Shown piece after piece: positions 21,271-35,964 of a stretch of 64,000 nucleotides of DNA (position 1 is its first letter; each line of letters starts with the position of its first letter). The DNA is from Leucobacter chromiireducens subsp. chromiireducens (lineage in GTDB: Bacteria > Actinomycetota > Actinomycetes > Actinomycetales > Microbacteriaceae). The translations under genes and the position numbers were made by a program. Location: positions 62,001-126,000 of the forward strand of contig NZ_QYAD01000005.1 in assembly GCF_016758255.1 (NCBI RefSeq), given 5' to 3'. The notes beneath the pieces are model-generated. The model had not been told where the DNA came from, made no database searches, and saw nothing but the letters and a program-made list of their open reading frames with translations.

Positions 21271-22251
21271 GTGCCGGAGCTTCCCGAAGTTGAGGTGGTG
21301 CGTGCGGGGCTGGCCCCCGCCGTTACCGGAGCACGCGTGGTTGCTGCGGAGGTGCGGGATCCGCGCGCGCTCAAGCGCCACGTACCGCTCGGCGGCGACG
21401 ATGGCCTCGGCGGGCACGGCGTCACCCTGCCCGCTGAGGCTGCGGCAACGCGCGCTGCCGACTTTGAGCGCCGGGTCACCGGCCTCACGCTGGGATCGCC
21501 GGCGCGGCGCGGGAAGTTCATGTGGGTGCCGGTTGCCGCCGAGCGGCCTACCGCAGAGCCATGGTCGCTCCTCGCTCACCTCGGCATGAGCGGTCAACTC
21601 CTGCTCCGGGACACGACGGCACTTGACGATCGACACGTGCGCATTCGGCTTTGGATCGAGCACCCCACGCATGGCGAGCTGCGCCTTGACTTCGCGGATC
21701 AGCGTCTTTTTGGCTCGCTCGCCCTCGATCGCCTCGCACCCACGCCCGACGGCGCACCGGGTGGCTTCGGGGGCGACGCGGAAGTTCCTGCGTTGCTGCC
21801 CGTGCAGGCTGCACGCATTGCCCGTGATCCGCTCGATCCGCACTTTGATGATGCCGAGTTCGTCGCCTCGGCTCGCCGTCGCGGCTCCGGGATCAAGCAG
21901 CTCTTGCTCGATCAATCGCTCGTGAGCGGGGTGGGCAACATCTACGCGGACGAGGCGTTGTGGCGCGCTCGGATGCACCCTGAGACACCCGGACGCCGGA
22001 TCTCCGCGGCACGCCTCACCGAGCTCCTCGCACTTCTCCGCGACGTATTTGCGCAGGCACTCGCCGAGGGCGGCACGAGCTTCGACGAGCAGTACGTCAA
22101 CGTGAACGGGCAAGCTGGTTATTTCAGCAGATATCTACATTCATATGGCCGAACCGCTGAACCATGCGATAGGTGCGGCACAAAGATCGAGCGAATTCCG
22201 TTCGCTGGGCGGTCGTCTCATTTCTGCCCGAAGTGCCAGCGTCTGCGGTGA
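21271..22251 (+). CDS. mutM: Formamidopyrimidine-DNA glycosylase; last 43 codons supplied by a mobile element
   Basis: Removes 8-oxoguanine and formamidopyrimidines from DNA and nicks the abasic site. The 326-residue protein starts with the catalytic PELPEVEVV (Pro becomes the N-terminus), has LAHLGMSGQL, HVRIRLW, the H2TH segment IKQLLLDQSLVSGVGNIYADEALW, and a zinc finger, two CxxC pairs starting at CDRC and CPKC. From codon 284 (22120) the codon use changes to AGA, CTA, AGG, TCA and the GC content drops. The native GC-rich 43-codon tail lies at 33471-33603. The gene remains open and its zinc finger is complete, so the enzyme is probably active as a hybrid. GTG start. Confidence 0.95.
   Translation: MPELPEVEVVRAGLAPAVTGARVVAAEVRDPRALKRHVPLGGDDGLGGHGVTLPAEAAATRAADFERRVTGLTLGSPARRGKFMWVPVAAERPTAEPWSLLAHLGMSGQLLLRDTTALDDRHVRIRLWIEHPTHGELRLDFADQRLFGSLALDRLAPTPDGAPGGFGGDAEVPALLPVQAARIARDPLDPHFDDAEFVASARRRGSGIKQLLLDQSLVSGVGNIYADEALWRARMHPETPGRRISAARLTELLALLRDVFAQALAEGGTSFDEQYVNVNGQAGYFSRYLHSYGRTAEPCDRCGTKIERIPFAGRSSHFCPKCQRLR
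22097..22142 (+). other. attL attachment site (left element junction)
   Basis: The left chromosomal half-site is joined to the element here. Predicted crossover dinucleotide GG at 22117-22118. The element-derived half continues with CAGCA at 22125-22129, the mirror of TGCTG at 33458-33462 across the reconstructed attP. Confidence 0.65.
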
Positions 22252-22323
22252 GCTCAGCGAGTGAGATCTGCGCAGACTCAGGCGGCTCACGTGAGTCGTC
22301 GGTCTTCACCTCGTCCTCCACGG

Positions 22324-22329
22324 TAGATT
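22324..22329 (+). promoter_or_regulatory. -10 box of the Type ISP gene (leaderless)
   Basis: TAGATT, seven bases before the GTG start. A perfect 10-bp palindrome CTCACGTGAG at 22286-22295 lies where an operator or -35 region would be. No separate controller gene is seen nearby. Confidence 0.45.
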
Positions 22330-22336
22330 ATGACGT

Positions 22337-25300
22337 GTGAGTACGACTGTCTATGAAGTTCTTGATTCCCTGCGAGCAGCGTCGCTCGACGAACGAGACA
22401 AAGGTGACCGGTTCGAGCGGTTGATCAAGTCCTTTCTGGAAACCGATCCCGAGTGGCAACAACGTTTCTCAACAGTCGAGTTCTTCACCGAATGGGAGTT
22501 GAACACGGGTGGCAAGGACATAGGCATCGATCTTGTCGCAAAGAACCGTTATGACGAAGGCTGGACTGCGATTCAGTGTAAGTTCTACGATTCGGGCGCG
22601 AAGGTAGCTAAGAGCGCTATCGACTCTTTCCTCTCGATCTCCTATCGTCCAGATTTCAACTTCACGCAACGCTTCATTATCGACACAGCCGATGGATGGA
22701 GCGGCAACGCCGAAGAAACCTTAAGGGGCCAAGTTCAACGCATCGACATATCGATGCTGGACGATGTCGCGATCGACTGGTCTGGTTGGTCAATTGACCA
22801 GCCCGAGAAGGTGCTCTATGCGGGGCCGAAGACGCTGCGCCCCCACCAGCGAGAAGCACTTGCTGACGTGCGATCTGGGTTCGGCGAACACGACCGCGGC
22901 AAACTCATCATGGCCTGTGGCACAGGCAAGACTTTCACCTCGCTCAAGATCGCTGAAGAGCTTGTTGGCAAGGGTGGGCGAGTGCTGTTCCTCGTGCCGT
23001 CGATTCAGCTGCTTTCGCAGTCGCTTCGTGAGTGGATGGCGCAAACGACTGTAGGTATTCGTCCGTTCGCTGTCTGTAGCGATGTTCGTGTTGGCCGCCG
23101 CGATGTGAACAATGATGAGCAAGACCAGTCAACGGTTGACTTGACCGAGCCGCCAACGACCGACCCCAAGAAACTCGTTGCGCGCTACAAGCAGAACCCC
23201 GCACCCGACGCTATGACTGTCGTGTTCTCGACCTATCAGAGCATCGACGTTGTGATCGCAGCTCAGGAGCATGGGCTCGATGAGTTCGACCTGATTATCT
23301 GCGACGAAGCACATCGCACGAGTGGCGTATCTGTTAGGGGCGAGGCCCGCCTCTCGCACTTCCTCAAGGTTCACGACCAAGACTTGCTGAAGGCGAAGAA
23401 GCGCCTCTACATGACGGCAACCCCGCGAGTCTTTGACGACAGTGTGAAGCGCCGCGCTGACGATGCTGAAGCCATTCTCTTCGACATGGGCGATGAGAAG
23501 CTCTACGGCCCCGAACTTCACCGTCTGGGCTTCGGCAAGGCCGTTGAGAGCAACCTGCTTACGGACTACAAGGTGCTCGTGCTCGCTGTAGACGAAGACT
23601 ATGTGGCCAAGCACTTCCAGTCGCAGTGGGGCTCTGAAATACCGCTCGATGACATTGCCAAGCTCGTTGGTTGCTGGAACGGTTTGGATAAGCACTTCAA
23701 AGAGACTGACGACGCCATTAAGGACTGGCGGCCGATGAAGACGGCTGTGGCCTTCGCGAGAGACATTGCTTCCAGCAAGACGGCAACGACGGTCTTTCCC
23801 GAGGTCTCCAAGAAAATCAACGAAGCGATCTCAGAGGGTGATAGCCGACGCCCCCTCGCTGTCGAGTCGCATCACGTCGACGGCACCATGGGTATTCACG
23901 AACGCAACTCGAAGCTGGCCTGGCTGAAAGAAGGCACCGACGAAGACGTTTGCCGAGTGCTGACGAACGCTCGCTGTCTTTCAGAGGGTGTGGACGTGCC
24001 AGCTCTCGATGCTGTGCTGTTCCTCACGCCTCGAGGTAGCCAAGTCGATGTTGTTCAGTCTGTCGGTCGGGTGATGCGCTTGGCTCCAGGTAAGGAGCTG
24101 GGCTACATCATTCTGCCTGTCGTCATTCCGGCGGGCATTCCGCCCGAAGAAGCACTCCAAGACAACGAACGCTATCGGGTGGTCTGGCAGGTTCTTCAGG
24201 CTTTGCGCTCACACGATGATCGCTTCAATGCCGAGATAAACAAGATCAACCTGAACCGGAACCGTTCGCCGCGTATCAGCGTTATCTCGGTCACAAACCC
24301 TTCTGACCAAGACCGAGGCGATGGGAGCGACAACTCGGAAAGCGGCCCTCGCTTCCAGCAGCAAGAGTTCGACTTCCCAGAAGACGAAGTCATTGACGCG
24401 ATGTATGCCCGCATTGTTCAGAAGGTGGGCGAACGAACCTACTGGGCTAAGTGGGCGAGCGAAGTTGCCACTATCGCAGAGAAGCACATCACCCGCATTG
24501 AGGGCTTGCTTGCTCACCCCTATTCGAAGCAAGCTGTCGAGTTCAAGCGATTCTTGAAGGGTTTGCGAGGCAACCTCAACGAGAACATCACCGAGCAAGA
24601 GGCAGTTGAGATGCTTGCGCAGCATCTCATTACGAGGCCGATCTTCGAGAAGCTTTTCGAGGGCTACGACTTCACGGCACACAACCCTGTTGCTCAGGTC
24701 ATGGAGAAGATGCTGGAGGTTCTGGATGAGAAGAACCTCGATGATGAGAACCAGACTCTTCGAGGGTTTTACGAGAGCGTTGGAAGACGAGTCGATGGTG
24801 TCGATAACAGCGATGGCAAGCAGAAGATTCTCATTGAGCTTTACGACAACTTCTTCAAAGCGGCCTTCAGAAGGTCGCAAGAGAAGCTAGGCATTGTCTA
24901 CTCACCGACTGAGATTGTGGACTTCATACTTCGCAGTGCTGACGCAGTGCTCAAGGAGGAGTTCGGGCAAGCGCTGACGGACGAGAATGTTCATATTCTC
25001 GATGGGTTCATAGGCACAGGCACGTTCCTAGTTCGATTGCTCCAGTCGGGGCTCATTAAGCCCGAAGACCTGCCGAGGAAGTATGCGAACGAGCTTCACG
25101 GCAACGAGATTCTCTTGCTCGCTTATTACATTGCGACGGTCAACCTGGAGACGACCTACCAGGAGATTACGGGCGATGCTCAAGCCTTCGACGGCCTCAT
25201 TCTGACTGACACCTTCCAGTCCTGGGAACCGAACGATGTTGTTGACCTCGAAGTGTTTGAAGAGAACAACAAGCGACTTGAGGCGCTGAAGAAACTCAAG

Positions 25301-27145
25301 ATCACGGTCATTGTTGGAAACCCGCCTTACTCAGTTGGTCAGGACTCAGCCAATGACAACAACGCCAACGAGTCATATCCTGCGCTCGACTCACGCATTA
25401 AGTCGGACTACGCTGATCGCTCAGCAGCGAGGCACAAGGCGAGTCTGCTGGATAGCTATATTCGAGCGATTAAGTGGGCGAGTCTCCGCATTCAAGATTG
25501 TGGAGTGATTGCGTATGTCACCAATGGAGGGTGGATTGACAGCAGCAGTGCTGATGGCATGAGAAAGTCTCTTGCCGATGAGTTCACCAGCATCTACGTC
25601 TGGAACCTGCGGGGTAATCAAAGAACCGCTGGCGAGCTTTCTCGAAAAGAGGGCGGAAAGATCTTTGGCGGTGGAAGTCGAGCGACGGTAGCAATTACTC
25701 TTCTCGTCAAGAACCCCACTCGTCAAGGCCAAACAGTGGTCAACTACGCTGAAGTAGCCGACTACATGACGCGCGAGGAAAAGCTGAAACTCGTTGCTGA
25801 CACGTCAACGATTTTGACGCTGAACACAAAACAGATTACGCCCAACACTCACGGCGACTGGATCAATCAACGCCGTGATGACTTCATAGAATTCTTACCA
25901 GCTTCGAGCGACGATAGGTCGCCATCCATTTTCGGGTTTAATACAGGCTGTCCGCTGACCTCTCGTGATTCATGGGTCTACAACTCTTCGCAATCCACTT
26001 TGCAAGAGTCTGTAACTGCCATGATTGAGCACTACAACTCGCTTGTTCCTCGCTACGCCACCCATATTGCTGCTGGAAGCCGGCCCCAAGCGTTCTTTGA
26101 CTTTAGTGACGTCAAAGACGAAACCAAAGTCAGCTGGGATGGAAAGAACAAGAAGGACTTGGCGGCAGGCAAGATAGTTGCTCCGAAGCTTGAGCAAGTT
26201 CGCTCTGCTTCCTACAGGCCGTTCTTCAAGCAACACTTGTATTACGACTCCACCTGGATTAACAGCGTCTACCGCATTGAAGAGACCTTCCCTATCGGTG
26301 GTCTACCTAACATGGGCTTCTATGTGGTCGGCAAGACTTCTGCCAATCCGTTCAGTGCTCTTATGACCAACATTGTTCCCGATAGGCATTACACGGGGGC
26401 AGGTAGCGGCGGTCAGTTCTTCCCGAGATTCAGGTATGAAAAGGCCGGTGCTTTAAGTAGTGGTCAAGGTGCGTTCTCCTTTGATGAGGGAACGATACTT
26501 GACGGGTACAGGCAGATTGACAACATCACCGATGATGCGCTCTCGCTTTTTCAAGCTCATTATCCGAGCGATACTGTGAGCAAGGATGATGTGTTTTTCT
26601 ATGTGTATGGGCTACTCCATTCACCCGAGTATCGAACCACGTTTGAAGCTGATCTGAAAAAGACGCTCCCTCACGTTCCTTTCGTGCGCGAGTTCAGACG
26701 ATTTGCTGATGCTGGCCGAGCGCTCAGCGAGCTTCACCTGAACTACGAAGCTGTTGAGCGATACCCGCTCGCTGGTCTAGAAGTCGAGCCTCTGGCAACA
26801 GTTGACGCCTATGAGTTCTTCGCCATCGAGAAGGCGAAGTTTGGAGGCACTGGAAAGAAGAAGGACATGAGCCAGTTGGTCTACAACAGGCACATTACGC
26901 TTTCAGGTATTCCTGAAGAGGTCTACCGCTACATGCTTGGCTCGCGTTCAGCGATTGAGTGGTTGAACGACCGCTATCAGGTCAAGGTCGATGCGAAGTC
27001 GGGAATTAGGAACGACCCGAACGATTGGTCACGAGAGGTTGGCGACCCCCGCTACATTCTCGACCTCTACGCACGCATCGTGACTGTGAGTGTTGAAACT
27101 ATGAAGATCTTAGACAGCCTGCCGCCACTCGACATCGTCGAGTAG
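22337..27145 (+). CDS. Type ISP restriction-modification enzyme (nuclease-helicase-methyltransferase)
   Basis: A 1602-residue single-chain enzyme resembling LlaGI/LlaBIII in length and order. The N-terminal Mrr-like nuclease has Asp65 in GGKDIGIDLVAK and the QCK motif at 80-82. A SF2 translocase follows: Walker A ACGTGKT at about 194-200, DEAH at 323-326, MTATPRVF, and QSVGRVMRLAP. The gamma-type N6-adenine methyltransferase has motif I in DGFIGTGTFLVR (from 889) and motif IV NPPY at 995-998. The last 450 residues should hold the target recognition domain. Such enzymes methylate one strand of an asymmetric site and cut after two head-to-head motors collide. GTG start, leaderless. GC content is visibly below that of the neighbours, which indicates transfer. 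All catalytic motifs look intact; the recognition site is not predictable. Confidence 0.92.
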   Translation: MSTTVYEVLDSLRAASLDERDKGDRFERLIKSFLETDPEWQQRFSTVEFFTEWELNTGGKDIGIDLVAKNRYDEGWTAIQCKFYDSGAKVAKSAIDSFLSISYRPDFNFTQRFIIDTADGWSGNAEETLRGQVQRIDISMLDDVAIDWSGWSIDQPEKVLYAGPKTLRPHQREALADVRSGFGEHDRGKLIMACGTGKTFTSLKIAEELVGKGGRVLFLVPSIQLLSQSLREWMAQTTVGIRPFAVCSDVRVGRRDVNNDEQDQSTVDLTEPPTTDPKKLVARYKQNPAPDAMTVVFSTYQSIDVVIAAQEHGLDEFDLIICDEAHRTSGVSVRGEARLSHFLKVHDQDLLKAKKRLYMTATPRVFDDSVKRRADDAEAILFDMGDEKLYGPELHRLGFGKAVESNLLTDYKVLVLAVDEDYVAKHFQSQWGSEIPLDDIAKLVGCWNGLDKHFKETDDAIKDWRPMKTAVAFARDIASSKTATTVFPEVSKKINEAISEGDSRRPLAVESHHVDGTMGIHERNSKLAWLKEGTDEDVCRVLTNARCLSEGVDVPALDAVLFLTPRGSQVDVVQSVGRVMRLAPGKELGYIILPVVIPAGIPPEEALQDNERYRVVWQVLQALRSHDDRFNAEINKINLNRNRSPRISVISVTNPSDQDRGDGSDNSESGPRFQQQEFDFPEDEVIDAMYARIVQKVGERTYWAKWASEVATIAEKHITRIEGLLAHPYSKQAVEFKRFLKGLRGNLNENITEQEAVEMLAQHLITRPIFEKLFEGYDFTAHNPVAQVMEKMLEVLDEKNLDDENQTLRGFYESVGRRVDGVDNSDGKQKILIELYDNFFKAAFRRSQEKLGIVYSPTEIVDFILRSADAVLKEEFGQALTDENVHILDGFIGTGTFLVRLLQSGLIKPEDLPRKYANELHGNEILLLAYYIATVNLETTYQEITGDAQAFDGLILTDTFQSWEPNDVVDLEVFEENNKRLEALKKLKITVIVGNPPYSVGQDSANDNNANESYPALDSRIKSDYADRSAARHKASLLDSYIRAIKWASLRIQDCGVIAYVTNGGWIDSSSADGMRKSLADEFTSIYVWNLRGNQRTAGELSRKEGGKIFGGGSRATVAITLLVKNPTRQGQTVVNYAEVADYMTREEKLKLVADTSTILTLNTKQITPNTHGDWINQRRDDFIEFLPASSDDRSPSIFGFNTGCPLTSRDSWVYNSSQSTLQESVTAMIEHYNSLVPRYATHIAAGSRPQAFFDFSDVKDETKVSWDGKNKKDLAAGKIVAPKLEQVRSASYRPFFKQHLYYDSTWINSVYRIEETFPIGGLPNMGFYVVGKTSANPFSALMTNIVPDRHYTGAGSGGQFFPRFRYEKAGALSSGQGAFSFDEGTILDGYRQIDNITDDALSLFQAHYPSDTVSKDDVFFYVYGLLHSPEYRTTFEADLKKTLPHVPFVREFRRFADAGRALSELHLNYEAVERYPLAGLEVEPLATVDAYEFFAIEKAKFGGTGKKKDMSQLVYNRHITLSGIPEEVYRYMLGSRSAIEWLNDRYQVKVDAKSGIRNDPNDWSREVGDPRYILDLYARIVTVSVETMKILDSLPPLDIVE

Positions 27146-27199
27146 TTTAGCTTTTGCTGGATGCGCCTGAATCGGTGTGCGCATGTCGGTGACATGAAG

Positions 27200-27231
27200 A
27201 GTGCCCCGCGAGGTTGTCCTCGTGGGGCACT
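27200..27231. terminator. Bidirectional terminator after the Type ISP gene
   Basis: Arms AGTGCCCCGCGAGG and CCTCGTGGGGCACT with a TTGT loop (13 of 14 paired). It sits between two convergent genes. Confidence 0.75.
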
Positions 27232-27244
27232 TCGTTGTAGCCCA

Positions 27245-27976
27245 TCATCCGATCTCGAGGCTGTTGTCCTCGGTAGCGGGGGAATCTTCCCAGGGCGTGG
27301 GCAGCGGGCCGCGCTTCAGTGCTTCGCGCTGCTGGATGCGCGCCGCCCGGTCGATGACCTGCTGAGCCTCCTTCGCCTTGGCGACCACCCCACTGGTGTT
27401 GCGCTTGGCATCATCGAGGGCGGTCTCGGCCTCCCGCTGCTGACGGAGCACCATGTTCAGAGCGTTGCGCGCATCCTCCTGTTCCTGACGCACGCGCATG
27501 ATGTCATCGCGGAGCACGGTCTTCTGCTTCTCGAGACTGGCTTCGGTGTCGGTGCGCTCGGCGAGCGCGCTGGCGGGCTTGTACCGGAACGAGGGCGCGG
27601 CTCCGCCGTCTCCGGCGCGGTGCAGGGCGACGAGGTCGGCGTGATCGGTGAGCATCGCGGCCAGGTTCGCGGCGATCACCTGCTCGATCACCGCTTCGGC
27701 GTACTGCTCGCCGAGATCGTCTTCATGGATCGGATCACCAAGCGGCGAACCACTCTCATCGGTGACGGTGTAGACGGCGCGTGGCTTCATTCCCACGCGG
27801 GGCCGGAACCTGCCCCGCTTTGGGGCGAGGCCGAACAAGCGAGCGCGGCTGCGCTCGATGTAGAACTCCGTGAGCGTCGGCTCGATCAGCGCGGGATCGT
27901 GCAGGAGCTTGACCTCACCGAGCGCCTGCTCGATGTAGGCCACGGTCATGTGATGAATGGTCTGCTGGGTGTCCAT
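27245..27976 (-). CDS. Uncharacterised mobilisation-operon protein with C-terminal coiled coil
   Basis: A 243-residue protein without a recognised family. The first 140 residues are mixed, with RSRARLFGLAPKRGRFRPRVG and a segment AVIEQVIAANLAAMLTDHADL. Residues of about 155-225 are strongly helical and charged (TEASLEKQKTVLRDDIMRV, RQEQEDARNALNMVL), consistent with a coiled coil. No signal peptide or membrane segment is seen. It is the last gene of the operon led by rep, mobC and the relaxase, 34 bp after the relaxase stop, so a role in plasmid-like processing or transfer is inferred from position only. A GGAGTCCC-like ribosome site (AAAGGACTCCCACC) precedes the ATG. Confidence 0.6.
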   Translation of the reverse strand: MDTQQTIHHMTVAYIEQALGEVKLLHDPALIEPTLTEFYIERSRARLFGLAPKRGRFRPRVGMKPRAVYTVTDESGSPLGDPIHEDDLGEQYAEAVIEQVIAANLAAMLTDHADLVALHRAGDGGAAPSFRYKPASALAERTDTEASLEKQKTVLRDDIMRVRQEQEDARNALNMVLRQQREAETALDDAKRNTSGVVAKAKEAQQVIDRAARIQQREALKRGPLPTPWEDSPATEDNSLEIG

Positions 27977-28010
27977 GGTGGGAGTCCTTTCTGACTCGTT
28001 GAGGGTTGGT

Positions 28011-28994
28011 CTAGTCGCCGTATTCGCGGTCGCCTTGGCGCTGGTGTCCGCGCAAGAACCGTTCCCGCGCGGGAGTCTTCGGAGTCTTCGAGGCCATGCG
28101 CCGCTTCAATCGCAGCGCGATAGCGTCGAACTCGTCGGTTTCGAGTTCCACCCCTGGCACCGGCGCGAGTGCGGGCGTGAGGCCTGCCGCACGCTGGCGG
28201 AACATCTCGGTGGCGGCTTCAGTGGTGAACTCGGGCGTGAGTGCCGATGCCTTCTTGCGGCCAATACGCCCGTTGTCCGCGCGGCGCATCTTGAAGCTCC
28301 ACCCGTCGCGGTTCGTGACCGTGAGGGTGACCCCTTGTTCGCCGAGCAGTCGCTCGAATGCGGCCTGATCGACGGCGCGGGAATCGCTCAGCGCAGCGAA
28401 CACGGCATCGCCGAGGGTCTGCTCGAACCCGCCTGACGCGAATGCTTCACGCCGCTGTTCCCAACCGGGCTTCGGCTGCACGGGATCAGGCAGCACCCGC
28501 AACCCCTCGTCGCGCATGAGTTCGTCGTTCAGTTGGTGCAGGCCGCGTTTCCACGAGGTGAACCTCTGCAAGCTCTTGCCGGTGAGGTTGTCGTGATTCG
28601 CTACGAGAATGTGCGCGTGGCCGTGCCCGCCCGCCGAGTCGGAATGCACCACCACGAGATAATCCGCCGAGTGCATCCGGCCCGCGAGCTTCGCGGCAAT
28701 GTCCTTGATACGCTCCATGTCGGCTCGATAGGTCACGTCGAACTCGTCGGGATGAAACGCGAGAACGTAGCTGTAGAGCTCGTTCTTGCGGTTCATTGCT
28801 TTGGCGAGCCGTTGCGCCCCTGCCACGAATCCAGCCGGTGAGGTGCTGCCGTTCTGCATCGAGAGCGCGAGGGCTGCGGCGCGGGTCTGCCCGCGTGAGC
28901 GCAGCCGCTCACGGAACTGCTTGTCGTTTCCGTAGAGCACGTAGGCGACTGACGCGGCGGCATCTTTCGACGGCTGAACATTGATCGTGCTCAT
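28011..28994 (-). CDS. Relaxase / mobilisation nuclease (HUH type)
   Basis: A 327-residue relaxase. Near the N-terminus AYVLYG supplies candidate catalytic tyrosines (18 and 21). The metal-binding motif HSDSAGGHGHAHILVANHD has His117, Asp119, His124, His126 and His128, as in the Pfam relaxase/MobA group. The C-terminal 120 residues are basic and lack a helicase domain. It should nick the element at oriT and lead the strand during transfer. ATG 28994 overlaps the mobC stop by four bases, and family sequence begins there. The exact MOB class is not assigned. Confidence 0.88.
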   Translation of the reverse strand: MSTINVQPSKDAAASVAYVLYGNDKQFRERLRSRGQTRAAALALSMQNGSTSPAGFVAGAQRLAKAMNRKNELYSYVLAFHPDEFDVTYRADMERIKDIAAKLAGRMHSADYLVVVHSDSAGGHGHAHILVANHDNLTGKSLQRFTSWKRGLHQLNDELMRDEGLRVLPDPVQPKPGWEQRREAFASGGFEQTLGDAVFAALSDSRAVDQAAFERLLGEQGVTLTVTNRDGWSFKMRRADNGRIGRKKASALTPEFTTEAATEMFRQRAAGLTPALAPVPGVELETDEFDAIALRLKRRMASKTPKTPARERFLRGHQRQGDREYGD

Positions 28995-29674
28995 ACGCTT
29001 GTCCGATCTCCGAGAGCAGCGCGAACCTCGCTCACCGCACCGAGCACTGCCCGCAGCAATCCGACATCGACAGCCTGCCCCTTGCGCAGCGTGGTGTTGA
29101 GGTTGACCCCAACGCGGCGCAACTGCTCCACCACCCCGGCAAGCTCCGGGTTCGGTGTCTCGCGTGCGGTCTGCTGCATGGCCGCTTCGAGTGCGTGCCG
29201 CTGGTCGAGAGCATCGAGCATCACAGCCCGCGCCCACGCCGAAGGCTTCACCCCGAGCGCCCGCGCCCGGTCGCGGATCGCTTCGCGCTCTGCCGTCGTG
29301 AGTCGCACATCGAGCGACACGTCACGGCGCGCCCGAGTGCTCCTGCTGGCATGGCGGGCATGCCCGCCGTGCTGCTCCATCTCCTTCGCCGGAACGGCGG
29401 CAAAGGTGCTGTCGCGCGGCTGCACGGATACCGGGGAACCACCCGACACCGCTACGCCGCGACCCCCATCGTGCCGAGACTCGGAGCCACCGCTACGCGG
29501 TGTCTCACTCGACACAATACGGGTCTGGCCAGCAGGGTACTTGTCGGACGAAGAGCTATCGCTCTTCACCCGCAAGTAGCGCTGGCCCCAGTCCTCGCGC
29601 GCGTTGCGCACTGCGGGCTGGGGAGACCCGAGCACCTTCCGGGGTGCCCGGATCGGGGGCCCGATCGCGTTCAC
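28991..29674 (-). CDS. MobC-like relaxosome accessory protein
   Basis: A 227-residue protein. The C-terminal 125 residues match MobC-type accessory proteins: DVSLDVRLTTAEREAIRDRA (ribbon-helix-helix-like), GVKPSAWARAVMLDAL, and PELAGVVEQLRRVGVNLNTT. This domain binds oriT and helps the relaxase melt the nick site. The N-terminal 100 residues are low-complexity, Ser/Gly/Arg-rich and unlike the family, and their DNA contains a strong inverted repeat that could be oriT. ATG 29674 overlaps the rep stop by four bases. An internal start at MEQHGG would give a protein of more usual MobC length. Confidence 0.8.
   Translation of the reverse strand: MNAIGPPIRAPRKVLGSPQPAVRNAREDWGQRYLRVKSDSSSSDKYPAGQTRIVSSETPRSGGSESRHDGGRGVAVSGGSPVSVQPRDSTFAAVPAKEMEQHGGHARHASRSTRARRDVSLDVRLTTAEREAIRDRARALGVKPSAWARAVMLDALDQRHALEAAMQQTARETPNPELAGVVEQLRRVGVNLNTTLRKGQAVDVGLLRAVLGAVSEVRAALGDRTSV
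29484..29506. repeat. Inverted repeat inside the mobC 5' region (candidate oriT)
   Basis: GAGCCACCGC and GCGGTGTCTC around TAC: a 10-bp stem with one mismatch. It lies upstream of the conserved MobC domain, where oriT is often found next to mob genes. No nick-site consensus was recognised. Confidence 0.4.
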
Positions 29675-31191
29675 GATCCCACCCCCTCACCGGCACAACC
29701 GGGCGCAGCAATCGCGCCGGCGGGTGCAGCCGGCAGCAACGCAATGTCGCTGCTGCAACCGGCAAGACCACCGAGCAGTTCCGACACGGCACCATCGGCG
29801 TCGTGGTCGGTGCGATCCTCGGGACCGTAGCTCAACGACAACACTTCGACGCGGGGGAAGTAGCTGTTCGACTGCGAACCGACGATACTCACCGAGTACG
29901 GCTCGATCTTCCCGATGGGCTGCACCAAGTAGCGCAGAATGTCGTCCTCGCGGTAGACCTTCACGACCGACTGCAAGCGGCGGATGAACTGGTCGAGCGC
30001 TTCATCGACGTTGCCCTTCTGCCGGGCGTAGAAGAAGAACTCGATAGGTTCAATGGTTGCCGTGATAACGATGAGCCGGGGCGCGACCTCACCCTTGTTC
30101 TTATACCGTGCCCGAGCAGGCGAAGCATTGTGCGGATCGAGCAGCAACAGCCAGTCGTTCGCATCCATCGCCGAAGCGCGCAGATCATCGAGCAGCATGA
30201 TCTCTTCGCCCCGCCAGTCATCCAGCGGGTTCGAGGTCGCGGCCCGGTACACCTGCCACCGTTCACCCTGCGCCTGCGCATACGAGATCGCCTGCTGAAT
30301 GAACCCATTAGCGAAGCGAGTCTTGCCCACCCCTGCATCGCCATAGACGTAGACAACCTGGGTGCGGAAGTCACCGTTGCGCAGCTTCGCTGCCGCCCGG
30401 TATGCGCGCCTCTGCCCGAAGGCAGAGATCGCATCGTCAATCTCGCGCTGATGCCGCGAGTAGATGTCGAAAAGATCATCGGTGAGCATGATCTGATCGC
30501 GCGTCACCTCGCCCTGAAGCACCATCTCGCGGAACGCCTCGAACTCCAGCTTCGCTCGTTTCGCCTTGATATGGGCGCGACCCTTCAGCCATACCGGGTA
30601 GCGCTCGCGATACACCTGTACATAGTCCATACCGCGCACCGAAGCGACCTGCTCCGGCGGGTACTGGAACTTCTCCGGGTACTTGACGTGCGTGAGATAG
30701 GCGAGACCGTTGTCGTGCTGCTGCGTGATCTTCTTCCCGCAGACCTCAACCGGCGCACCACCACGCGACTTATCAAGTTCGAGATATTGCACCTCGACAC
30801 CCAAGATCGCGGCCAGTTTCGCAACCGCTGCCGAGGTCTCACGACTCTTGAACTTGAGCAGCAGATGCAGATGCAGAAACTTCAGCACTTCGATCATCGA
30901 AGCAGTCGCGTCATCCCAGGCCTGCTGAGTGTCGTCGCCGTGCAAGTTGCCGTGAGCGTCATCAAGCACGAGGCCTTCACCTTCCAACCTCGTAACGAGG
31001 TATTCGGAGATCGCGGCGGCCGTCTCGCGCAGCATGTCAATGCGTGCAGGATGATCCTTCGGCAGGTCGTTCGCCTGGTGCGCCAGTTCTAACAGCCTGG
31101 CAAACACTGGATCAGTCGAGTGCTGCCAGCACTCCGGCTTGATCTGCTGCACCAGCATTACCAGGGTCGGGTTCGCAGCCTTACGCGCCAC
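29671..31191 (-). CDS. Rolling-circle-type replication initiator with helicase domain
   Basis: A 506-residue protein from GTG 31191. The N-terminal half resembles plasmid Rep_2 proteins: HUH-like metal motif FLHLHLLLKFKS, then a Tyr motif in NGLAYLTHVKYPEKF. The second half is an SF3-like ATPase: Walker A GDAGVGKTRFA, Walker B IMLLDDLRAS and a following Asn/Thr sensor segment LIVITATIEP. This endonuclease-helicase order is that of Bifidobacterium-type plasmid Reps and of CRESS-DNA virus Reps. A longer start at ATG 31260 would run through a set of repeats that look like a binding site, so GTG 31191, preceded by GGGGGTGG, is preferred. The stop overlaps mobC. Confidence 0.8.
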   Translation of the reverse strand: MARKAANPTLVMLVQQIKPECWQHSTDPVFARLLELAHQANDLPKDHPARIDMLRETAAAISEYLVTRLEGEGLVLDDAHGNLHGDDTQQAWDDATASMIEVLKFLHLHLLLKFKSRETSAAVAKLAAILGVEVQYLELDKSRGGAPVEVCGKKITQQHDNGLAYLTHVKYPEKFQYPPEQVASVRGMDYVQVYRERYPVWLKGRAHIKAKRAKLEFEAFREMVLQGEVTRDQIMLTDDLFDIYSRHQREIDDAISAFGQRRAYRAAAKLRNGDFRTQVVYVYGDAGVGKTRFANGFIQQAISYAQAQGERWQVYRAATSNPLDDWRGEEIMLLDDLRASAMDANDWLLLLDPHNASPARARYKNKGEVAPRLIVITATIEPIEFFFYARQKGNVDEALDQFIRRLQSVVKVYREDDILRYLVQPIGKIEPYSVSIVGSQSNSYFPRVEVLSLSYGPEDRTDHDADGAVSELLGGLAGCSSDIALLPAAPAGAIAAPGCAGEGVGS

Positions 31192-31201
31192 AGCAACCAC
31201 C

Positions 31202-31253
31202 CCCGATGTGGGGGACAACGGCCAGCATCGAAATCCCGATGTACCCCCGATGT
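31202..31253. repeat. Three CCCGATGT repeats in 11-bp register (candidate Rep binding site)
   Basis: Copies begin at 31202, 31235 and 31246. The last two are 11 bp apart and the first is 33 bp away, so all face the same side of the helix. Immediately upstream of rep; probably iterons or a Rep operator. Confidence 0.55.
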
Positions 31254-31405
31254 ACCCCATGCAACCGGCGGCTGCAGGCAGCGGAACGGTGCGGTAAAAT
31301 CGGCGGAAACACGCCGGTTTCGGGGTGGCGCGGCGAATCTACAAGCCCTTCGCCGCGCCTGTAGGGAACGCATTCCCGATCACACCCGGCAAAACTCCTG
31401 CAGGG

Positions 31406-31440
31406 GTTCTCAAGGAAGAAGACCGGGTCTTCCTGAGAAC
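31406..31440. repeat. Long hairpin between the HTH gene and rep
   Basis: GTTCTCAAGGAAGA and TCTTCCTGAGAAC pair over 13 positions with one bulged base around a short loop. No T-run follows on the minus strand. It may be a replication-origin structure or a transcription attenuator before rep. The rest of 31261-31473 shows no gene I can support. Confidence 0.6.
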
Positions 31441-31473
31441 GCTCGTGCCCGATGCAGGCGGCGGGCGCGGCGT

Positions 31474-31782
31474 TCATACTGCACCTCCCGAGGATGCAGA
31501 GGCGAGTGCTGCGGCGATGCGCGCACGGCGAGCCTCGGAGAGCACGGGGGCCTGAGCGACGAGGTCAGCGATGTGCACTTCGATGTCTTCGAGGCTGCTC
31601 GCCTGGGGAGCGGTCAACGCATCGACATCGGCGGGAGCGAACAGAAGCCGCCCGTGTCGCCTAGCAGCGCGGAGCTTGCCAGCATCCTTCAAACGGCGCA
31701 ACTGCCGCTCGGAGTAACCGCTGCGGTGGATTGCCTCGCTGAGAGACAGAGTGAATACAGGGGTATCTGCGAAAACAGACAT
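31474..31782 (-). CDS. Excisionase/MerR-like helix-turn-helix protein
   Basis: A 102-residue protein with an HTH_17-type domain at about 12-55: LSLSEAIHRSGYSERQLRRL, KDAGKLRAARRHGRLLFAPADVDAL. This winged-helix layout is used by recombination directionality factors and by small plasmid regulators. The C-terminal half is an acidic then basic helix (EDIEVHIADLVAQA, SEARRARIAAALA). It lies between rep and the integrase, all on the same strand. It could direct excision with the serine integrase or control rep; the sequence does not distinguish these. Confidence 0.72.
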   Translation of the reverse strand: MSVFADTPVFTLSLSEAIHRSGYSERQLRRLKDAGKLRAARRHGRLLFAPADVDALTAPQASSLEDIEVHIADLVAQAPVLSEARRARIAAALASASSGGAV

Positions 31783-31975
31783 AGTGGAAGAACCTCACGA
31801 GTGAGTTTGCTTCCGGCCCCTGCGTATTTCAGCGATTTCCGGCTAACTATCCAACTGTAGGTCCCCGAGCTTCTCAGCCAAGCAATCCCTGGGGGAGTTG
31901 CTCAGCCCTGTCACGGCGTTGGTGGGGTTATGTCTGTATGGCCACAAGAATACCTGGGAACGCCGGACATTTCCT
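31783..31975. other. Intergenic stretch between integrase and HTH gene
   Basis: No supportable gene. It holds the promoter region of the HTH-rep-mob operon and the 3' flank of the integrase gene. It contains TATTTCAGC at 31825-31833, identical to nine bases at attL, without further similarity. Confidence 0.5.
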
Positions 31976-33424
31976 CTATGCTTTCCAGGAAATATTGAGA
32001 AGCGACGGGTCAAAGCCTTTTGCGCCCCGCTTTGAGGGCATCAGGGTGACGCTCATCAACTCGTTGATGATAAGCCGCTGACGTGCAATATCGAGCGCCT
32101 TCCAAGCTGCGGCCACATCCGGAGCCTCGACAATCTCGCGGCCAGGGTTCGACGGTGCAGGTGCAAGCAGGCCGTCGATCTCGTTCAATCGCCCGCGAAG
32201 TCGAGCTGACTGTTCGCGTACACCATCTCCATCGAGCACTCCATCGGCAAACAGTGCGGCCAGCCCATCGAGGCGATCTTGTACCGCGATCCTCTCAATT
32301 CTTAAAGAATCACGGTTGATCACCTTTTCGTCGGGCGGCGTGAAAAGGTCTCGAGCGTCTTCGCGGGTGAGCCTTCCGAGAACCAAAGCGTTGATGAAAT
32401 CGTCAACGGGTTCTGCGTTACGTGAGAGATGCTTGTGTTCTATGCAAGCGTAGAGGCGCTTCGGCTCGTACTCTCGATGCTCTCCAGTCACAAGGGTGCG
32501 GGGAGAGCGGCGGTAGTAACTCGTGTAGACCTTTGTCTTGTTGTCATTACACCGGCCACAGAATGCCAATCCAGAAAGTAGATATCTTGGTTCGGTTCCC
32601 CAAATGCGACGTCGTTCAGGGGCATGCAACTTCGCTTGAACCGCATTAAACACGTCGGCCGGAACGATGGCTTCGAACGCACCGGGGTACTCATCGCTTG
32701 ACATCTTCGAGACCTTCCGTTTCTCGGGGTCGGCCTCCCACTTCGTGATGACGCCCTTGTAGCGCGCGTTGCTCAGTAATGAGCGGATGTTCTCGTTCGA
32801 CCACTCGCTGCCCCGCGTCGTGGTGAACCCCTGCGCCGTCAGATCGCGGGCGATGTGCGTGATCTTGACGCCTGCCAGGAAGTCCTCGAACGCCTTCTTC
32901 ACCGCCGCTGCCTCGTCGTCGATCTGAGTCACGCCGTCGTCGTCATAGCCGAGGATGCGGCCTCGCATGATCGGAACGCCCTTCTTGCGCCGGGTCTCGT
33001 TCGCGCCGATGGCGCGCTCGGACTTCCGGCGTATCTCGAACCGGGCGACCGCCGCGAGCATCGTCGCGCGGAACTCGCCGTCTGCCGATGTCAGGTCGAT
33101 GTCCCCGTCGGCCGTGGCGACCTTCGCACCCAGGTCGATCAGCTTCACGAGGTCCTGTAGCGTGCGCAGCAGGCGGTCGAGATCTCGGGCGACAATCACG
33201 TCGAACTTGCCGGTGCCGACTTGAGAAAGCATCCGCGCCCACTCGGTATTGCCGTCACGCGCCTTCGTGGCGGAGACTCCCTCGTCGATGTACTCGGGGC
33301 CGTACTCCCAGTCGCGCGCCGTGCACACCCCCCTGATTCGCCTCCGCTGGGTCTCCAAGCTTAGAGACTCGTCATCGGTGTCGTCGGACTTGGAGACGCG
33401 GAGATACACGGCTGCAACGGTCAT
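31976..33424 (-). CDS. int: Large serine recombinase (site-specific integrase)
   Basis: A 482-residue large serine integrase. The resolvase domain has catalytic Ser11 in VYLRVSKSD, VARDLDRLLRTL (active-site Arg and Asp), and the long helix region EFRATMLAAVARFEIRRKSERA. The recombinase domain follows (GRILGYDDDGVTQI, LLSNARYKGVITKW), then the zinc ribbon FCGRC and YACIEH, and a C-terminal coiled-coil segment. It integrates the element into mutM; its own attP half-site lies 45 bp upstream of its ATG. The start is six bases after a TAATGT box. The length is at the short end for the family but no domain is missing. Confidence 0.94.
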   Translation of the reverse strand: MTVAAVYLRVSKSDDTDDESLSLETQRRRIRGVCTARDWEYGPEYIDEGVSATKARDGNTEWARMLSQVGTGKFDVIVARDLDRLLRTLQDLVKLIDLGAKVATADGDIDLTSADGEFRATMLAAVARFEIRRKSERAIGANETRRKKGVPIMRGRILGYDDDGVTQIDDEAAAVKKAFEDFLAGVKITHIARDLTAQGFTTTRGSEWSNENIRSLLSNARYKGVITKWEADPEKRKVSKMSSDEYPGAFEAIVPADVFNAVQAKLHAPERRRIWGTEPRYLLSGLAFCGRCNDNKTKVYTSYYRRSPRTLVTGEHREYEPKRLYACIEHKHLSRNAEPVDDFINALVLGRLTREDARDLFTPPDEKVINRDSLRIERIAVQDRLDGLAALFADGVLDGDGVREQSARLRGRLNEIDGLLAPAPSNPGREIVEAPDVAAAWKALDIARQRLIINELMSVTLMPSKRGAKGFDPSLLNISWKA

Positions 33425-33430
33425 GCTGTG

Positions 33431-33436
33431 ACATTA
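33431..33436 (-). promoter_or_regulatory. -10 box of the integrase (leaderless)
   Basis: TAATGT on the minus strand, six bases before the integrase ATG. The matching -35 position falls in the element-derived arm of attR, so the promoter stays with the gene in both the integrated and excised states. Confidence 0.45.
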
Positions 33437-33444
33437 TCGGAGAT

Positions 33445-33490
33445 GAACGTTAATAAGTGCTGTAGTCGGGGTATTTCGCGCACTCGCTCA
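33445..33490 (+). other. attR attachment site (right element junction)
   Basis: Element-derived half 33445-33468 with TGCTG at 33458-33462, predicted crossover GG at 33469-33470, then chromosomal mutM sequence starting GTATTTCGCGC. Joined to the left element end it gives a 50-bp imperfect palindrome centred on GG. Confidence 0.65.
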
Positions 33491-33603
33491 ATGCATATGG
33501 TCGCGGGGGAGAACCGTGTCATAGATGTGGCGAGCCACTGAAGCGAATTCCCTTCGGCGGGCGCTCGAGCCATTTCTGCCCCCGCTGCCAGCGTCGGCGT
33601 TGA
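33471..33603 (+). pseudogene. Displaced native 3' end of mutM
   Basis: Encodes 43 codons in frame from YF to a [14 protein letters not shown] and so on, with CHRC and CPRC zinc-finger pairs and [11 protein letters not shown]. It is high-GC with chromosome-like codon use, unlike the copy now attached to mutM. No start codon, so not expressed alone. It marks the right edge of the insertion. Confidence 0.92.
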
Positions 33604-33624
33604 GAACTGGTCGCTTTCGCGAGA

Positions 33625-34101
33625 CTACTTCGTGTGCAGTTCCGGGGCAGCAAAAAGAAGGTCGAACTCCTCGCAGACAACCTCAAGATCATCGCTCACT
33701 GCGTAGGCGGTGCCGGCGAGTACGCGAGAGTAATAGCCCTGGTGGGCAGTCCGCCACCAGCTGAGGGTTCGATCGCCTTCGCCTTCGGTTCGCGCAAACT
33801 CCTCGTCCACATCGGCGAAACGCCGAATCTCGACCGACCGCGTTTGAATGACGGCGCGTGCGATTCCGGCCCCGTCCGTCACGATGGCATAGTCGCCTGG
33901 CTGCGGGATCGGGTCTCCAGCGAGCTCCAGTTCGGCGACTGACGGCGCAGTTGCGCACTTCACGCCCGACAGTACGAGTTCGAGTAGAGCGTCGGCTTCT
34001 TCAGCGTTGTCGCTGAACGAGTACGACAGCGGCAGGCTCGCAGGTACTGATGGGGTCACCCCTCGATACTGAGCCCAGAGTCGTGCGACCGAATCGTCCA
34101 T
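33625..34101 (-). CDS. ASCH-domain protein
   Basis: A 158-residue protein with an ASCH (PUA-like) fold. It opens with a helical region LWAQYRGVTPS and SYSFSDNAEEADALLELVLSG, then the ASCH-type turn KCATAPSVAELE, and PQPGDYAIVTDGAGIARAVI; the C-terminus has DLEVVCEEFDLLF. ASCH proteins bind RNA or modified nucleosides, and some hydrolyse N4-acetylcytidine; no specific activity is claimed here. AGGGGGGAAACG precedes the ATG. It is convergent with the mutM remnant and is the first intact gene right of the element. Confidence 0.8.
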   Translation of the reverse strand: MDDSVARLWAQYRGVTPSVPASLPLSYSFSDNAEEADALLELVLSGVKCATAPSVAELELAGDPIPQPGDYAIVTDGAGIARAVIQTRSVEIRRFADVDEEFARTEGEGDRTLSWWRTAHQGYYSRVLAGTAYAVSDDLEVVCEEFDLLFAAPELHTK

Positions 34102-34176
34102 CGTTTCCCCCCTTCGACTGACCCGCGCGTGTGCGGCACGTTGAGCTTAGCGGCGGGGGAATCCTGCTGTGCTCGC

Positions 34177-34182
34177 TAGGCT
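34177..34182 (+). promoter_or_regulatory. -10 box of the MepB-like gene (leaderless)
   Basis: TAGGCT, six bases before the ATG. Confidence 0.5.
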
Positions 34183-34188
34183 GGGACG

Positions 34189-34638
34189 ATGCAGTTCTCC
34201 GCGTTTGCTCAGTACGCCGCACTATCACGCGACTTACGGTTCGCGGATGCAGAGCCGCAGGCTGAGGAACAGGGCAGCGACTACGAGGCTGGCACGGTGG
34301 GCTACGATGCGGAGCTCTGGCGCATTCGCACCGCGCGTGTGACGCCGCGCAAGCCCGGTGCATTTGTGGCGTTCTGGGAACGGGACCGCGTGGGCGCGAC
34401 GCGGCCGTTCTCTGAGGACGCGAGTATGGCGGGGCTGCTGGTGTTTGTCCGGGATGAATCGCGCTTTGGGGTCTTTCGCTTTCCAACTGCAGCACTGCGC
34501 GCGCTCGGAATCGTGCGCACGAGCACGCAAACCGGAAAACGTGGCTTCCGTCTCTACCCCGCGTGGTGCTCGGACTTGAACCCGCAGGCCGCGAGGACCC
34601 AGCGCGCCCAGGCGCCATATTTCACGCAGCTTCGCTGA
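34189..34638 (+). CDS. MepB-family protein
   Basis: A 149-residue protein resembling the MepB family, named for a gene beside the MepA efflux pump in staphylococci but of unknown activity. Recognisable segments are YDAELWRIRTARVTPRKPGAFVA, FWERDRVGATRPF, GLLVFVRDESRFGVFRFPTAAL and GKRGFRLYPAWC near the C-terminus. No signal peptide. The last 17 bases overlap the 3' end of the convergent GNAT gene. Confidence 0.75.
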   Translation: MQFSAFAQYAALSRDLRFADAEPQAEEQGSDYEAGTVGYDAELWRIRTARVTPRKPGAFVAFWERDRVGATRPFSEDASMAGLLVFVRDESRFGVFRFPTAALRALGIVRTSTQTGKRGFRLYPAWCSDLNPQAARTQRAQAPYFTQLR

Positions 34639-35170
34639 GGTCCGAGGGTGCAGCTTCCGCTGCTCGATCGACCGCGAATGCGAGATGGGGCAGCTCGGCC
34701 CCCCGGTACTGCATGGTGAAGTGCCCGCGCACCGTCATACCGATTCGGATCGCGACATTCATCGACGCGGTATTGGTGTTGCGAACCTGCGACCACACGC
34801 GGCGCGCATCGAGCTGAGTGAAGGCGTAGTCTCGGCAGGCCGTTGCCGCCTCAACAGCATAGCCCTGGTGCCAGTGCGCTCGATTGAAGAGATACCCGAC
34901 CTCAATCACATTCTCGCCCAGGATGTGCTGCCGTGTGAGGCCACACTGTCCGATGAACTCGCCTGTCTCGCGCAGGATCACCGCCCACAGCCCGAACCCG
35001 TCATCGCGGTAGCGATCCAGCGCGCGACGCAACCAGGCCTGGACGAGCGCCTCATCGAACGCCCCCTCATACGCGGTCATCGTGATCTCGTCCTGCAAGA
35101 TGGCCCGCAATGCGGGGAGATCATCCGCGGTCATTTCGCGAAGCGTGAGTCGAGGCGTGGAGGGGGGCAT
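34622..35170 (-). CDS. GNAT-family N-acetyltransferase
   Basis: A 182-residue acetyltransferase of the RimJ/RimL-like group. It begins TPRLTLREMTADDLPALRAIL, has WAVILRETGEFIGQCGL and VIEVGYLFNRAHWHQGYAVEAA with the acetyl-CoA pyrophosphate loop, then RRVWSQVRNTNTASMNVAIRIGM. Substrate not predictable. ATG 35170 is chosen because family sequence begins a few residues later; an upstream in-frame extension lacks similarity. The 3' end overlaps MepB by 17 bp. Confidence 0.85.
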   Translation of the reverse strand: MPPSTPRLTLREMTADDLPALRAILQDEITMTAYEGAFDEALVQAWLRRALDRYRDDGFGLWAVILRETGEFIGQCGLTRQHILGENVIEVGYLFNRAHWHQGYAVEAATACRDYAFTQLDARRVWSQVRNTNTASMNVAIRIGMTVRGHFTMQYRGAELPHLAFAVDRAAEAAPSDLSEAA

Positions 35171-35310
35171 GAAGCCCAGTATTGCAGCAGTGCACGTTGC
35201 AGTCTTGCTCGCCCGGCGGTGCTCCGACCGCCTGGGGCGGCGGCTCACAGTGCCGCGCCCTCCCGTGCTCTTCAGAGGTTTTTATGCTGGACCAATGAAA
35301 AGTCTGGTGT

Positions 35311-35316
35311 TAGCGT
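35311..35316 (+). promoter_or_regulatory. -10 box of the cupin gene (leaderless)
   Basis: TAGCGT, six bases before ATG 35323. This spacing favours 35323 over the in-frame GTG at 35317. Confidence 0.45.
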
Positions 35317-35322
35317 GTGGCC

Positions 35323-35727: not shown

Positions 35728-35964
35728 GCCTTCGCTGCGCAGGGCTTCTCCCTGTTCTTCAAGGGGGAAACAAGCGAGCGCGACCAGTCGTTCGCAGGCT
35801 TCGGGCGCTGAGGCGCGGTACTTCACCGGCCGCAGCTGCGTCACGTGCTCGCGACCATCTCCCGTATTCCGTTGCCCATCACTTGGTCGTGCACGCGAGA
35901 ATGGTGCCATGATCGGGCCTGCGCCTGTGCATCACGTTGACGACCCTGTCGCTCTGGCCCGAGC

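Follow-up and report, generated by a model that had tools for sequence, protein, structure and literature searches.

Very probably, mutM in the DNA analyzed here is occupied by an integrative mobilizable element of ∼11.35 kb (GG to GG), which inserts at a fixed attB in this gene and brings a substitute 43-codon tail. The window, i.e., the whole stretch of DNA analyzed, comprises 64,000 nucleotides of Leucobacter chromiireducens subsp. chromiireducens. The initial annotation had proposed that the element targets a conserved part of mutM and carries a substitute tail, and this was supported by the displaced tail, by tail pairs in seven genomes, by the symmetry of attP, by the conserved rare codons and by the integrase clade. 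In the proposed mechanism, a fixed attB within mutM would be recombined with attP by the serine integrase, the exchange taking place at the GG that belongs to the GYF glycine codon, and attP would carry a diverged, functional-looking copy of the remaining gene. Because attP carries the gene end, integration would swap the 43-codon C-terminal zinc-finger segment and MutM would not be destroyed; the host's own tail, shifted to the opposite end of the element, would be restored by excision.

The mutM chimera and its two tails

Two 43-codon mutM tails, each with a stop codon, had been annotated at 22120–22251 (fused to mutM) and 33472–33603 (orphan), and both were found there. The exchange point is best placed one codon upstream of the annotated boundary, within the glycine codon at its GG (22117–22118 and 33469–33470).

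21271–22251, plus strand: mutM (fpg), chimeric, with host body to 22116 and element-borne tail from the GG at 22117 (Pfam/NCBIfam; host homology)
22119–22251, plus strand: element-borne substitute tail, a zinc finger with the four Cys and the conserved Arg retained
33471–33603, plus strand: original host mutM tail, displaced and now orphan; a stop codon precedes GYF by two codons

The fused ORF matched MutM (Pfam Fapy_DNA_glyco, H2TH and zf-FPG_IleRS) and scored above the cut-off for NCBIfam NF002211 and TIGR00577. Fused and orphan tails, which lie 11.35 kb apart, were identical at 87/132 nucleotides and at 29/44 positions (stop included). As annotated, the fused tail is richer in AT, the GC content being 53.8% in the fused tail, 61.4% in the orphan tail and 69.0% in the mutM body.

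Uninterrupted mutM genes were compared in other species of the window's genus. With the mutM tail of the nearest relative, the orphan shared 95% amino acid identity and the fused tail 63%. Therefore, the orphan, already described as host-like in the initial annotation, is the displaced original, and the fused tail was rejected as such. An uninterrupted mutM ending like the orphan had been named as something to look for in relatives, and an orphan-type tail (GYFAHS) was indeed present on mutM in 21/24 congeners, two of the 21 being cut by contig ends. No second mutM tail was found in the nearest relative, and the closest relatives showed neither a low-GC tail on mutM without the island nor an ortholog with both tails, the two outcomes named beforehand as speaking against insertion. 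Host homology to the nearest relative extended to 22115, with the query cut at 22117, and host gene order picked up again downstream at 35306–35730.

Gene content of the element

A serine integrase and mobilization genes had been annotated between the tails, and Pfam searches identified there a large serine recombinase, a MobA-type relaxase and a NikA-like protein.

22337–27145, plus strand: type ISP restriction-modification enzyme, cargo (Pfam Type_ISP_C and ISP_coupler; PADLOC REase_MTase_IIG)
27245–27976, minus strand: protein without Pfam or NCBIfam match, beside the mobilization genes (55% homolog in the Salinibacterium element)
28011–28997, minus strand: MobA/VirD2-type relaxase (Pfam PF03432; 80% homolog in G040), start set by homology, with the listed ORF extending to 29237
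28991–29674, minus strand: NikA-like mobilization protein (Pfam PF21983)
29671–31260, minus strand: replication protein with helicase and origin-binding-like regions (PF00910 above, PF01719 below the cut-off)
31474–31782, minus strand: small helix-turn-helix protein, candidate excision factor (HTH_17 below the cut-off)
31976–33424, minus strand: large serine integrase (Resolvase and Recombinase domains; clade)

Both the Resolvase catalytic and the Recombinase domain of the 482-amino acid integrase scored above the cut-off; Cys 289, 292, and 327 were seen, a zinc ribbon having four ligands. As in mobilizable elements, an own relaxase (PF03432) and an accessory mobilization protein (PF21983) were present, and the relaxase may permit transfer by a helper. 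When the seven element proteins besides MutM were scanned with Pfam and NCBIfam (short overlapping ORFs excluded), no conjugation apparatus was identified. The helix-turn-helix protein adjacent to the integrase, with tblastn homologs in 4/6 other elements, may serve as excision factor.

Related elements form one integrase clade

The initial annotation had also suggested looking for further elements in which a related integrase accompanies a mutM tail, and these were found in six more genomes, in which the integrases are related (64–84%) and both tails are present, split at the same codon. In a genome scan covering the best 80 of 84 relatives, the orphan mutM tail adjoined the integrase at the 5/5 closest loci, and the congener G003 and the window make seven; at the other 83 loci (75 genome, 8 viral) no orphan mutM tail was found. 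The two tails are located on different contigs in G042 and about 84 kb apart in G044 (MAG). A tree of 37 rows was built from 35 of the 88 loci of the genome and viral scans together with the window and G003 (L103 was lost by length), and here the seven integrases formed one clade with support 100/100.

At 42/75 related-integrase loci (best 80 of 84 relatives), the integrase gene adjoins one copy of part of a flavin-monooxygenase-like gene, and no second copy of this part was found in the DNA examined at those loci. The integrase was detected in 2/398 genomes of the family (E 1e-100), 2/394 of the class (1e-120) and 4/54 of the genus (E 1e-80), the last being the window, G003 and, at 43–45%, G002 and G823; counts include the window's own genome where the group contains the window. 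At E 1e-120, it was found in 1/401 genomes of the family of G570 and in 1/295 of the family of G044. From their identical coordinates, G125 and G570 are presumed to be the Salinibacterium and Gordonia genomes already counted. The plasmid collection yielded no integrase match at E 1e-60, and six records of the phage collection carried integrases of about 33% identity.

The distal parts of the element and orphan tails of Gordonia spumicola (G041) match at 82/93 nucleotides, so that some conversion or capture may happen.

The joined junctions rebuild a symmetric attP

22096–22103, plus strand: GTCAACGT, within the YVNVNG codons, putative motif for the integrase zinc domain in the attB left arm (5 bp nearer the center than in attP)
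22117–22118, plus strand: predicted crossover dinucleotide GG, left junction, attL (center of the attP repeat, 7/7)
22119–22144, plus strand: P' arm of attP, coding, contains CTACATTCAT (inverted repeat, codon conservation, single window match of the 14-base pattern)
33443–33468, plus strand: P arm of attP, beginning with ATGAACGT and located between the core and the start of the integrase
33469–33470, plus strand: predicted crossover dinucleotide GG, right junction, attR (center of the attP repeat)

When the junctions were joined, an attP was rebuilt in 7/7 elements as an imperfect inverted repeat of about 50 bp centered on a dinucleotide, as in large serine integrase systems; this dinucleotide, the GG of the GYF glycine codon, is the probable exact crossover site. 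Pooled, 114/182 positions matched compared to 46.0 (sd 5.8) in shuffles, and 0/2000 shuffles were as high. Same-center peaks were also observed outside attP, in attR of G041 (12/26) and in attB of the window (11) and of G040 (12), and attL of G044 ties.

Homologous tails flanking the DNA would also be expected if the second tail had arisen from mutM by tandem duplication or gene conversion and the island separating the copies were unrelated, and the distal similarity of the G041 tails (82/93) fits with conversion or capture. However, this origin is extremely improbable: the tails in the window are just 65% identical in nucleotides, a codon-level arm is common to 6/7 fused tails across genera, and duplication does not predict the centered inverted repeat seen in all seven sets of joined junctions. 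Insertion by the integrase is preferred.

A matrix derived solely from the attP arms gave its highest score in the left arm of the hosts at the offset shifted 5 bp towards the center, with a mean of 5.49 in 23 hosts against a mutM background of -14.9 (sd 5.7). The attB right arm scored -6.05 at the 5-bp shift and three other offsets were equal or higher, so that it gave no discrimination. The hosts were 23 of the 29 loci L004–L032, i.e., 20 congeners and 3 of other families; L011, L019, and L022 were left out (element-type or unusual tails) and L025, L028, and L031 were lost by length or pattern.

The coding arm and the rare codons

The codons CTA CAT TCA are fixed in the attP arm within the substitute tail in 6/7 elements, the G043 element keeping neither CTA nor TCA. 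In the mutM bodies of 22 loci (the attB set of 23 minus L024), CTA accounts for 2/192 Leu and TCA for 3/88 Ser codons. Synonymous identity among the seven element tails was 51/57 at codons 6–8 (from 0) vs. 237/489 in the rest of the tail; these elements are related and not independent rows, and when each lineage was represented once (5 rows), the contrast was 22/26 vs. 112/222 (Fisher 0.0008). The initial annotation had spoken of a recoded copy; a general composition effect as the origin of the rare codons was rejected since they are concentrated in the arm. The odd codons of the substitute tail are explained by its overlap with half of attP, and part of this tail appears to double as the element's insertion site. 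The arm pattern was found in 2/54 genomes of the genus and 2/219 of the family, all of them elements already known, and viral contigs gave no match to the 32-base pattern of the coding arm.

Relics and the state of MutM

Extra mutM tails were identified in 5/25 genomes of the window's genus and in at least 9/37 genomes of a second genus among the matches listed. G006 has a host-type tail on mutM and a frameshifted tail fragment 6.9 kb away, and G008 has a weak fragment. In G004, the second tail looks intact and is joined by part of a third, and in G023 the second tail has lost cysteines; all four cases are read as relics. No integrase homolog was found in the DNA examined of G004 and G023. The relics G023, G645, and G006 have an intact tail on mutM, while their displaced tail has lost Cys or its frame. 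No repeat centered on GG was seen in the relics G1090, G1492, G1491, and G023, and G004 showed one weakly (11/26). Judging from the extra tails in the two genera, mutM is a repeatedly used insertion site. It is somewhat likely that mutM is a recurrent docking site in Actinobacteria and that the elements are an engine of zinc-finger-segment exchange, in which the first dozen codons are half an integrase site and a swap can stay fixed after decay to an about 1-kb remnant.

Insertion could also disrupt MutM: the chimera would be inactive or altered, and repair would stay off as long as the element is integrated (regulated gene integrity). Disruption of the target gene is frequent among serine-integrase elements and occurs in all 29 streptococcal ICEs with serine integrases according to the available text of PMC4701971, and the related integrases beside a single flavin-monooxygenase-like gene part (42/75 loci) would fit this. 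The orphan tails also come close to the fused ones in conservation of the cysteines, all four being kept, and in codon-position pattern, their third-position excess resembling that of the fused tails (0.35, 0.32, 0.54 vs. 0.28, 0.28, 0.53). Constraint on the fused tail is thereby shown only modestly. Nevertheless, disruption is very unlikely, since the seven fused tails are invariant in the four Cys, the Arg and 22/43 positions vs. 15/43 positions in the orphans, a full zinc finger closes each of the fused frames, and in the decayed G023, G645, and G006 it is the displaced tail that deteriorates, the one on mutM being retained. The chimeric MutM is predicted to be active.

Discussion

The element apparently enters a catalytic gene without destroying it. 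If just two bases of a serine-integrase site must match, a substitute end may diverge widely and satisfy protein and integrase together, which offers a testable case of DNA being both protein code and recombination site. In actinobacteria, mutM is predicted to be a conserved landing site; in addition, an integrase with predicted attP and attB is offered. The related integrases in another gene, where no substitute was seen, form a natural comparison.

Comparison with known systems

A mutM element was not found in the literature searched (including PMC12424338), and the survey of Mageeney 2020 and supplementary target lists, outside the scope of this search, may list mutM. The available portions of PMC3218068, PMC4701971, PMC12884075, PMC10654092, and PMC10083194 do not mention mutM.

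The element resembles e14 in icd in its insertion inside a coding sequence, in the 3' end that it supplies, with the target gene running in frame into element DNA, and in the displaced original end at the other junction; moreover, relatives (other species of the genus) have an uninterrupted mutM with a host-type tail. The e14 integrase is of the tyrosine type. Unlike e14, the element described here has a serine integrase, a predicted two-base shared core and, in the window, a tail differing at 35% of nucleotides. In Escherichia coli, e14 and related prophages in icd supply an in-frame 3' end and leave the original end on the far side, and e14 duplicates 165 bp with 12 nucleotide and 2 amino acid changes (PMC11148124, in part). 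In the sections available of PMC10111431, an attP carrying the replacement gene end is a stated rule and icd-kind sites are described with long identity blocks.

As in the Listeria LI/A118 system, attP consists of two half-sites; a putative motif lies 5 bp inward in the left arm of attB, the shift being clear in this arm only. A118 disrupts comK. Unlike in LI/A118, one attP arm is protein-coding here, and the YVNVNG codons of mutM contain the attB motif. The LI/A118 attP is about 50 bp long with two half-sites and an outer zinc-domain motif, which in attB is 5 bp nearer the center (excerpts of PMC3783163).

mutT belongs to the same oxidized-guanine pathway as mutM. Streptococcal ICEs with serine integrases insert site-specifically in the non-essential rumA, hsdM, and mutT and disrupt their target (PMC4701971, in part), whereas here a substitute end is supplied. 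From the portions of these reports that were available, a replacement gene end on attP is already known (icd/e14). New here are the target, the serine integrase, the diverged zinc-finger tail and the dual-use codons.

Two mutM tails and the host-type end

As claimed in the initial annotation, two mutM tails could be identified in the window, each consisting of 43 codons and a stop codon; 87 of 132 nucleotides are identical between the tail fused to mutM and the displaced, orphan tail.

21271-22251: mutM, with the fused tail at its 3' end
33472-33603: second, orphan mutM tail

When the MutM protein was compared with the window's own genome, three matches were obtained: mutM in full, the orphan tail and, at 35%, a distant gene of the Fpg/Nei-like type. 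In alignments with solved MutM structures, e.g., 1l1t, the tail segment runs along the zinc-finger end. The proposal that the orphan tail is the host-like one held when relatives were inspected: the mutM end of the nearest congener, G001 (MutM 86% identity), is 95% identical to the orphan tail at the amino acid level vs 63% to the fused tail, and a GYFAHS-type tail is found on mutM itself in 21 of 24 congeners, the exceptions being G003, G004 and G023. Upstream, host homology extends to 22115 (the query was cut at 22117). Downstream, 35306-35730 matches G001 DNA starting ~170 bases past mutM, and 33604-35305 has no counterpart in G001 between the mutM end and the DNA matching 35306-35730.

Related elements and their integrases

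In integrase scans, 80 loci were kept from the genome collection and 8 from the viral collection. The five closest integrases (64-80% identity) belong to Salinibacterium, two Gordonia, Nocardia and Kocuria, and in all five loci an orphan mutM tail lies directly upstream of the integrase. Together with congener G003, which has an 84% identical integrase and a 6.3 kb version of the element, these loci establish that other elements carry a mutM tail beside a related integrase. No orphan tail was found at the other 83 integrase loci of both scans, some of which end close to the integrase.

In all seven genomes, the window's included, mutM ends in a differing fused tail, and fused and orphan tails begin at the same codon. 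Only five elements are cleanly bounded, because the tails of G042 lie on different contigs and those of the Kocuria MAG G044 (L157, L158) are ~84 kb apart, which could mean that the element is large or composite, or that the spacing arose in assembly. In a tree of 37 rows, all seven integrases fall into a single clade (support 100/100), within which the two Gordonia integrases are not grouped together, suggesting that the elements spread horizontally.

The Salinibacterium element shares a relaxase (80%), a NikA-like protein (68%) and an unknown protein (55%) with the window and also encodes type I restriction; the Nocardia element has an enzyme homologous (58%) to the type ISP protein of the window. 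The slot past the substitute tail is occupied by restriction systems in three elements (window 22337-27145, type ISP; L156, type ISP; L151:1758-7785, type I). A small HTH gene adjoins the integrase; tblastn detected homologues of it in G003, G040, G041 and G042, and its product is suggested as a candidate excision factor. The replication protein at 29671-31260 has a helicase region and a weak origin-binding-like match, and is reminiscent of CRESS-type Reps.

Integrases of ~40% identity adjoin part of another gene, presumably flavin-monooxygenase-like from its motif, with one copy of this part in 42 of 75 loci. These 42 loci (between L039 and L103, e.g., L046:9744-9917) come from many actinobacterial genera, and the part lies on either side of the integrase. 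A second copy was found in 0 of 75 loci and no match in 33, and no substitute gene end was seen in this lineage within the DNA examined around the 75 loci.

The attachment site

The attP was rebuilt by joining the left flank of the orphan tail to the right flank of the fused junction. Its best inverted-repeat centre lies between the two Gs of the GYF glycine codon in 7/7 elements, each pairing at 13-18 of 26 positions. Over all seven, 114 of 182 positions pair, whereas shuffled sequences average 46.0 (sd 5.8), and 0 of 2000 shuffles reached the observed value. Among the controls, attB peaked at the same centre only in the window (11) and G040 (Salinibacterium, 12), attR only in G041 (Gordonia spumicola, 12), and attL never alone, G044 being tied at 9.

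The outer motif ATGAAYGT was derived from attP arms only and scored on 23 host mutM genes, which are related and hence do not amount to 23 independent tests. In the left attB arm the top score was obtained at an offset 5 bp nearer the centre (mean 5.49; mutM background -14.9, sd 5.7), and this position falls within the YVNVNG codons. The right arm gave -6.05 at the 5-bp shift and does not discriminate, since three further offsets do equally well or better. An identical shift toward the centre is described for a Listeria integrase (PMC3783163), and is here matched in the left arm.

Apparent dual use of codons

The attP arm within the fused tail is coding. CTACATTCATA is carried by six of the seven fused tails and is missing from G043; its 32-base context matches 17 of 233 loci, each being a copy of one of these tails or of the relic G1491. 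Both CTA (2 of 192 Leu codons) and TCA (3 of 88 Ser codons) are rare in mutM bodies. Synonymous identity of the fused tails is 51/57 at three arm codons vs 237/489 downstream (22/26 vs 112/222 when reduced to five lineages), and 12/37 at the same codons of the orphan tails. The fused tails of the window, G003 and G040 agree at 33-34 of the first 36 nt, but their identity over the full length is only 71-75%.

The zinc finger's four Cys and its Arg do not vary among the seven fused tails, in which 22/43 positions are invariant overall; in the orphan tails 15/43 positions are invariant, the four Cys included. Past the arm, the differences at the three codon positions amount to 0.28, 0.28 and 0.53 for fused and 0.35, 0.32 and 0.54 for orphan tails, and because these are similar, this measure alone does not separate the fused tails. 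In G. spumicola (G041; L152, L153), the two tails are identical at 82 of 93 nt past the arm, which suggests that the distal host tail was locally converted or captured.

Recurrent extra tails and probable relics

Extra mutM tails were found in 5/25 genomes of the window's genus, weakly in a sixth (G008), and in at least 9/37 genomes in the genus of G570 (inferred Gordonia), a count including G570, with its tails on separate contigs, and two partial cases. Several inserts in this Gordonia-type genus are short, with ~0.7-3 kb between mutM and the second tail (L224-L230); no integrase homologue was found in them, and they are either relics or small non-autonomous elements. In G1491, where a fused tail bearing the CTACATTCATA arm and an orphan tail bearing the ATGAACGT arm lie ~1.1 kb apart, both attP-arm motifs are kept. 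A second fused-arm type, CTTSACGTTTATGG, is present in G1090, G1492 and G023. Loss of cysteines or of the reading frame affects the displaced tail of G023, G645 and G006, whereas the tail on mutM is whole in these genomes, from which it appears that a tail, once swapped, can persist after the element has decayed. G1509 (L231:1348-11600) has mutM and two further tails within ~10 kb, an arrangement resembling the tandem insertion of two elements.

Comparison with known systems

The presence of a foreign tail on mutM and of a displaced host-type tail is confirmed. An attP can carry a replacement gene end (PMC10111431), the best-known example being e14 in icd (PMC11148124), and according to a streptococcal survey, all 29 of its serine-integrase ICEs disrupt coding genes (PMC4701971). 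None of the papers found by literature search names mutM as a target of replacement-end elements. The principle, an attP carrying a replacement gene end, is ordinary and already known, and what is unusual here is the mutM target, the divergence of the tails and the dual-use codons.
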